DNA of 33,434 bases from Synergistaceae bacterium. GTDB taxonomy: Bacteria > Synergistota > Synergistia > Synergistales > Aminobacteriaceae. The stretch is taken from the NCBI GenBank assembly GCA_031272145.1, contig JAISUL010000031.1, positions 1 to 33,434 on the forward strand. Reading direction: 5' to 3'. The notes under the pieces were generated by a model. The model made no database searches, was not told the origin of the DNA, and was given only the letters and a program-made list of their open reading frames with translations. Below, in pieces: positions 27,913 to 29,053 of the stretch (the first letter of the stretch is position 1; the number at the start of each line of letters is the position of its first letter). The position numbers and the translations under genes are program-made.

Positions 27913-29053
27913 TCATAGCCCCACCCTGTACTCCGGTGCGGCGAGGGTAACCCTGGCGGAAAACATGTGCGACCTAAAATAAAACCTAGCGTCGGGCAGC
28001 AGCGTATGCAGGTACTGCGGGATGGTGATCAAGTCCTCCGCCTTGTGGTAGACGCAGACGGCGAGCTTGGGGCGCTTCGAGACGATAGTGCGCGCGGCGC
28101 CGTGGAGCGCCTTTAGTTCCGCCCCCTCGATGTCCATCTTGATGAACGAGACCGGCTCGTCCCCAAGCAGGTTGTCGATCGAGTCCGCCTGCACAGAAAT
28201 CTCTCTCTCTCTCTCTCTCTCTCTCTCTCTCTCTCTCTCTCTCTCTCTCTCTCTCAACGACGGCTGATGCGCTGCCGCTGCTTCGGAAATGCAGGGTCTC
28301 CGCGCGGTTCCACGCTGCCTTCTCGAAGATCGTGACGCCGCCGATCCCGCGCGCGGCAACGGTCTTGGCCAGCGCCGCTGCGTTCTCGCGATCCGGCTCG
28401 AAACAAAAAATCCGATCGTAGCGGTTAGATACAGCCTGGCAAAAATCCAGCACCGTGTCGCCGGTGTACGAGCCGCAGTCGACGAAGACCTCGTTGCCGC
28501 TGAGCTTCAGGTCGACGTCGTCGGGGTCAAGAAAATATCTCCGCTCGGAGACGTAGTTCAGCAAATGCCCGCAGTCGCCGCTGATCATCGTGTTCAGGTA
28601 GGCGATGTAGGATTCGCGCGAACGGCGGTCGGAGAGCATGAAGAACGTTTCGTCGAACTCGCGCCCGTGCTCGGCGATGAAGCGCCAGTCCATGGCGTTG
28701 TCCGTGCCCGACGTATCCAGAAAAAAGACCCTGTCTATGCCGGGGCAGTCGCAGGCGAGGGCAAATATTTTCTCAGACCCGACCGCAAACGCCGGAACAG
28801 CGTTGAACCGCCCCAAACGCCCGAACAGTGTTTCATACGTCTCTATGGGCATGCCGCGGAAGCGCGCGTTAGGGCGATGGTACATGGCGTCGACAAATAT
28901 CCCGCTGACTTTGACGCCGAGGCGGTCAAGCGTGTTCAGCGTCAGGTCAGCGTACCCTCCCGCCCCGTAGAGCACCAGAGGCAGGGAAGAAGCCCGCATC
29001 TCCGCCGCGATCTCGGCGGTTCTGTTTTTCCTTTCGAGCAGTGCTTCGATCAA
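27913..29053 (-). CDS. FkbM-family SAM methyltransferase split by a GA repeat
   Basis: Both halves of an FkbM methyltransferase are present in two frames. Residues 1-266 from the TTG at 29053 (AGGAGG 8 bases upstream) include a nucleotide-binding-like N-terminus ('LVLYGAGGYADLTLNTLDRLG'), the SAM motif 'GNEVFVDCGSYTGDTVLDF' (187-204) and 'FCFEPDRENAAAL'. At codon 267 a (GA)28 tract begins, coding Glu-Arg repeats. In the present frame the product then runs 71 residues of unrelated sequence after the Glu-Arg repeats to 27986. The genuine C-terminus ('ISVQADSIDNLLGDEP', 'SFIKMDIEGAELKALHGA') is in another frame and ends at the TGA at 27913. With 26 or 29 GA units both halves join (378 or 380 residues). 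Substrate unknown; FkbM enzymes often methylate sugars or polyketides. Confidence 0.85.
28200..28255 (-). repeat. (GA)28 dinucleotide repeat inside the methyltransferase gene
   Basis: Fifty-six bases of perfect TC (plus strand) or GA (gene strand) repeat begin exactly at codon 267 of the FkbM gene. Frame arithmetic: unit counts of 26, 29 or 32 (2 modulo 3) give the full-length enzyme, and the present 28 does not. Confidence 0.95.

Follow-up and report, generated by a model that had tools for sequence, protein, structure and literature searches.

A predicted GA-repeat switch within an FkbM-family methyltransferase gene of a Synergistaceae bacterium, one of about 40 such loci in the genome

Frameshift switching of glycan genes through simple sequence repeats (SSRs) has long been known. 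In Haemophilus, Neisseria, Helicobacter and Campylobacter, short repeats in LPS, LOS and capsule genes switch glycan-modifying functions at many loci per genome, and the locus described here resembles these systems in each of these respects. A phase-variable FkbM gene per se also already has a precedent in H. influenzae 86-028NP, where a (G)12 tract lies inside the coding region of an FkbM-family gene with a proposed role in LPS O-methylation (PMC2651432). The dinucleotide found here has been described in the coding region of a type III methyltransferase gene of Mycoplasma mycoides, which is OFF with AG12 and ON with AG10, as measured by its activity (PMC3498834).

The locus of this study lies in a window, by which we mean the whole stretch of 33,434 nucleotides that was analyzed, from the genome of a Synergistaceae bacterium. 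To our knowledge, this lineage was not previously known for phase variation, and our literature search returned no report of such switching in Synergistetes, nor of phase variation linked to Fretibacterium. The GA tract at 28200-28255 is very probably a slipped-strand contingency locus that belongs to a large, GA-only set; that it switches is a prediction drawn from its sequence.

A (GA)28 tract between two reading frames of an FkbM-family gene

The sequence-only reading had placed a (GA)28 repeat between the two halves of a methyltransferase gene, with the SAM motif and the conserved end in separate frames on either side of it. TRF recovered the repeat as a perfect (TC)28 on the plus strand, i.e. 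(GA)28 on the minus strand (period 2, 28.0 copies, 100% matches, score 112), and the frame analysis agreed with the proposed arrangement (Table 1). Translation of the minus strand from the TTG codon at 29053, which is preceded by an AGGAGG ribosome site, stays open up to the tract, and the conserved downstream half (94 residues, 'SVQADSIDNLL..FIKMDIEGAELKALHG') lies in a different frame. The gene encodes both the SAM-binding motif and the K-x-D-x-E-G motif, in separate frames at 28 units, and the corresponding segments share one frame in the paralogue L010. The predicted consequences of unit number were likewise borne out: the halves join at 29 units (+1) or 26 units (-2), counts of 2 modulo 3 giving an enzyme of about 380 residues, and with 28 units the open frame runs into a wrong tail. 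As all three frames of the tract encode Arg-Glu repeats, the tract itself never halts translation. Outside the tract, the gene is without a further stop or frameshift and its motifs are intact. What we find is a pure repeat of a non-triplet unit within the FkbM coding region, in which gain or loss of units joins or breaks the frame of a gene that is otherwise intact and conserved, two of the features that mark a contingency locus. The OFF state in the assembly is provisional, since a consensus built from short reads may be wrong by one unit over 56 bp of repeat. A promoter scan upstream of the gene on its own strand gave no convincing match.

Table 1. Features of the window gene, and classes of genes that carry GA tracts in the genome
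Feature	Position or locus	Strand	Basis
(GA)28 tract, predicted switch; (Arg-Glu)n in every frame	28200..28255	- (sense)	TRF and sequence
Upstream half: N-terminal domain and SAM-binding motif (VFVDCGSYTGDT, FEPD); 266 codons, TTG start	28256..29053	-	ORF/frame analysis; 41-46% identity to three own-genome paralogues
Downstream half: end of FkbM methyltransferase domain (FIKMDIEGAELKALHG); other frame at 28 units	27916..28197	-	PF05050 E=1.3e-8; TIGR01444 E=3.4e-8, under cut-off (partial)
Frame open at 28 units: 355-aa OFF product, wrong C-terminal tail	27986..29053	-	ORF listing
Ribosome-binding site region (AGGAGGAGATCATT 5' of TTG start)	29054..29070	-	read from sequence
FkbM tract genes (7)	L010, L018, window gene, L027, L038, L044, L051		profile
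GT8 tract genes (5)	L012, L015, L021, L034, L050		profile
GT2 tract genes (2)	L017, L024		profile
GT4 tract gene	L041		profile
GT56-like tract gene	L032		profile
DUF4422 tract gene	L040		profile
DUF268 tract genes (2)	L033, L035		profile
Other SAM methyltransferase tract genes (2)	L016, L029		profile
Radical SAM tract genes (2)	L022, L031		profile; L042 homologous
MBOAT tract gene	L046		profile
Asparagine synthase tract gene	L049		profile
Acyl carrier tract gene	L043		profile
Type I R-M specificity subunit (HsdS), tract between two recognition domains	L025		profile

The family assignment draws on the downstream half and on the paralogue L010. The downstream half alone scores 35.5 bits against PF05050 (cut-off 22.7) and, as a partial domain, 34.1 bits against TIGR01444, which is under the cut-off of 37.7. 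The upstream half alone gave no Pfam match and resembles three paralogues of the same genome. The paralogue L010, which has 18 units and an intact frame, carries its tract at the same place as the window gene and exceeds the TIGR01444 cut-off with 65.8 bits (E=5.6e-18). Its nearest solved structure is 2py6, 'Methyltransferase FkbM' (E=4e-21), the catalytic domain of which aligns with L010 across the tract, whereas the repeat is absent from 2py6 and a short charged loop occupies the position of the Arg-Glu repeat. The match of the downstream half to PF05050, together with those of L010 to TIGR01444 and 2py6, confirms the window gene as a predicted FkbM-family methyltransferase gene, as the initial reading had proposed. 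Alignment with tract-free relatives of the family puts the tract site in the loop between the 'SxSxV' segment and the segment running to '(T/S)IDxxL'. OFF products would therefore be devoid of the second catalytic motif. In a further FkbM paralogue, L090 (G000, contig C59), an internal deletion took the tract region and the catalytic end.

GA tracts across the genome and in other genera

A pattern search of the whole assembly (2.05 Mb in 107 contigs, 97.8% complete) revealed 43 distinct GA tracts of 7.5-31 units with a median of 37 bp. Hence, while the tract noticed at the outset is real, the view of it as a single locus is ruled out. The assembly contains no long AT, CA or CG tracts and no alternating purine-pyrimidine simple repeat of at least 11 units; runs of G9 or longer are present, by our estimate not in excess of the expectation from base composition. 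Any (GA)12 was found in 7 of the 188 genomes of the phylum, which places the window tract far beyond chance, and the window genome is by far the richest of them. Its only (GATA) run directly follows a (GA)7.5 tract at L037 (G000:C33:25966-26007).

Wherever a tract gene is recognizable, GA lies on the sense strand, and most of these genes encode glycan-type enzymes. At least 27 tracts are located in genes with a profile match (Table 1) and about 9 are without a clear gene. In the HsdS gene at L025:887-2076, a (GA)15 tract separates the recognition domains and is out of frame as assembled; this tract possibly constitutes a phasevarion.

To assign frames, we worked on the GA-sense strand and used length and GC3, with both strands also examined; 26 tract genes were judged readable on both sides of the tract. 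In the consensus, eight of these (31%) keep the frame and 18 lose it, and random phase would leave one third in frame (P=1.0). If the tracts were harmless in-frame linkers, almost every gene should keep its frame, and this ratio rules such linkers out.

Tracts at comparable sites recur outside the window genome. Two species of genus g4, G010 and G011, possess GA tracts in FkbM genes within the loop that also holds the tracts of the window gene and of own-genome paralogues, and the assembled g4 genes are out of frame. A different FkbM type of G010 has a further GA tract, roughly at the 'GGSW' position where L044 and L051 have theirs, and in a GT2 gene of genus g15 the tract nearly coincides in position with that of L024. 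That such sites recur in separate genomes speaks against error or decay. The same-loop tracts across genera suggest that the switch site may have been kept or regained by selection.

These data bear on the possibility that the broken frame of the window gene reflects an assembly or sequencing error, with a true length that restores the frame in the majority of cells and simple expression of the gene with an Arg-Glu linker. The genome is a draft of 107 contigs and several tracts are situated near contig ends, as expected where assembly is hard. However, stutter around one in-frame length would leave most tract genes in frame, while 18 of the 26 are not, and the out-of-frame FkbM genes at GA tracts in another genus come from independent genomes. 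We thus consider such an error unlikely to account for the locus.

We further compared the window gene to its paralogues on the level of substitutions. In both halves dN is smaller than dS, with dN/dS pairs relative to L010 of 0.32/1.06 for the downstream and 0.57/1.44 for the upstream half. On this sequence comparison, both halves show the signature of purifying selection, and the currently unread half therefore still looks selected. If, instead, a neutral microsatellite had broken a gene no longer needed, the gene would be a decaying pseudogene, in line with its OFF state as assembled and with the deletion in L090. Against such decay stand the low dN in both halves, the intact motifs, the lack of any other stop or frameshift in the gene and the existence of L010, in frame with its tract in the same loop, which together make a pseudogene very improbable.

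Tract flanks, shared leader and mismatch repair

Within six bases 3' of the repeat, TTT is found at 31 of the 43 tracts compared to a background of 3.6% (binomial P ~1e-35, overstated since some tract genes are paralogues), and in 0-4% of the short GA runs of up to 9 bases in the same DNA. A pyrimidine-rich YTTTY directly follows the repeat in unrelated genes among the 43 tracts (L009-L051); the GA tracts of genus g4 are devoid of a TTT/YTTTY flank. The pyrimidine-rich stretch is a DNA-level feature that might act on translation, and in this respect it would favor the notion that the shifted product is functional, or that ribosomal frameshifting at the tract yields some full enzyme in every phase. 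This notion is hardly credible, since no single slippery heptamer is common to the listed tract flanks and GC3 at the window gene is low in the OFF tail (0.36 vs 0.85 in the true frame).

In the FkbM and radical-SAM genes, the T-run encodes residues that are also found in relatives, and it may thus precede the repeat. The common YTTTY boundary, the near absence of intermediate lengths between short runs and long tracts, and the restriction to GA lead to the tentative, rather doubtful idea that a dedicated process, beyond chance slippage, creates or spreads the GA tracts. Speculative examples of it could be exchange between tracts, or the copying of a CTTTC-type site by snap-back. Such a process, if true, would seed new phase-variable genes, and the common flank provides a lead on the origin of such tracts that can be tested.

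A different sequence is shared by the start-codon tracts L011, L012, L017, L021 and L023 (contigs C8, C39, C64 and C91 of G000), which have a common leader of ~100 bp on the sense strand 5' of the tract. It comprises TTGACA, a 17-bp spacer with the palindrome GCACGCC-C-GGCGTGC, TATAGT and a leader ending in ACCAAATG(AG)n. This promoter occurs in six copies in the genome, the one at C8:860-889 being tractless and located before a radical-SAM-like gene piece, and it is absent upstream of the window gene. The common leader suggests that a regulated set may exist on top of random switching.

The window genome possesses genes for MutS1 and MutL. The core motifs of MutS1 are intact, so that the data do not support a loss of mismatch repair as the cause of the tracts in the window genome. 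The C-terminal helices of MutS1 are absent, and this absence is shared by G081, a relative that has no long GA tracts. Functional mismatch repair should reduce slippage at dinucleotide repeats, which counts against the switch reading. In genus g4 (G009, G010 and G011; one genome 99% complete, two incomplete), neither MutS1 nor MutL gave a match above the cut-off, and two of these three genomes carry GA tracts. According to the title of a study cited in PMC4085013, mismatch-repair mutations in H. influenzae raise the mutation rates of dinucleotide tracts without raising dinucleotide-driven pilin switching, so that repair does not act on such switches in a straightforward way.

The proposed switch compared with known systems

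We propose that slipped-strand mispairing in living cells would add or remove GA units inside the FkbM methyltransferase gene. A count of 2 modulo 3 would give the ON state with a full enzyme, and any other count an OFF state, the product of which would miss the catalytic end and probably be inactive. The (Arg-Glu)n stretch sits in a loop that connects two segments of the methyltransferase fold and seems to tolerate extra residues, so that tract length could drift while the ON state works. The window locus would be one of about 40 GA switches, mostly in glycan-type enzymes, and each cell would therefore hold a random combination of surface-sugar modifications; a surface glycan is also the probable substrate of the window enzyme. 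The on/off switch that the sequence-only reading had envisaged gains support from the genome-wide recurrence of the tracts, the in-frame rate of one third, the purifying selection on both halves and the same-loop tracts in another genus, and it has a functional precedent in the AG repeat of M. mycoides.

Taken as a whole, this would be a large dinucleotide switch set aimed at surface-glycan enzymes plus one DNA-modification specificity gene, and it predicts that individual cells differ greatly in their surfaces, as they do in the classic mucosal pathogens and commensals. When compared to the M. mycoides gene, which encodes a DNA methyltransferase and has 10-12 units, the window tract contains 28 units and interrupts a glycan-type methyltransferase gene. 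The FkbM gene of H. influenzae harbors a homopolymer at its 5' end and is a single gene, whereas here a dinucleotide repeat lies inside the catalytic fold and paralogues carry tracts as well. The SSR genes of Haemophilus, Neisseria, Helicobacter and Campylobacter mainly rely on G/C homopolymers or tetranucleotides, while the tracts of the window genome are almost all GA, are often positioned in the middle of the gene instead of near its 5' end and occur in another lineage. The mechanism is of a known kind; the size of the set, its single GA unit and the lineage are new as far as our literature search showed, and the GA-only set of about 40 loci is the most notable aspect of the locus.
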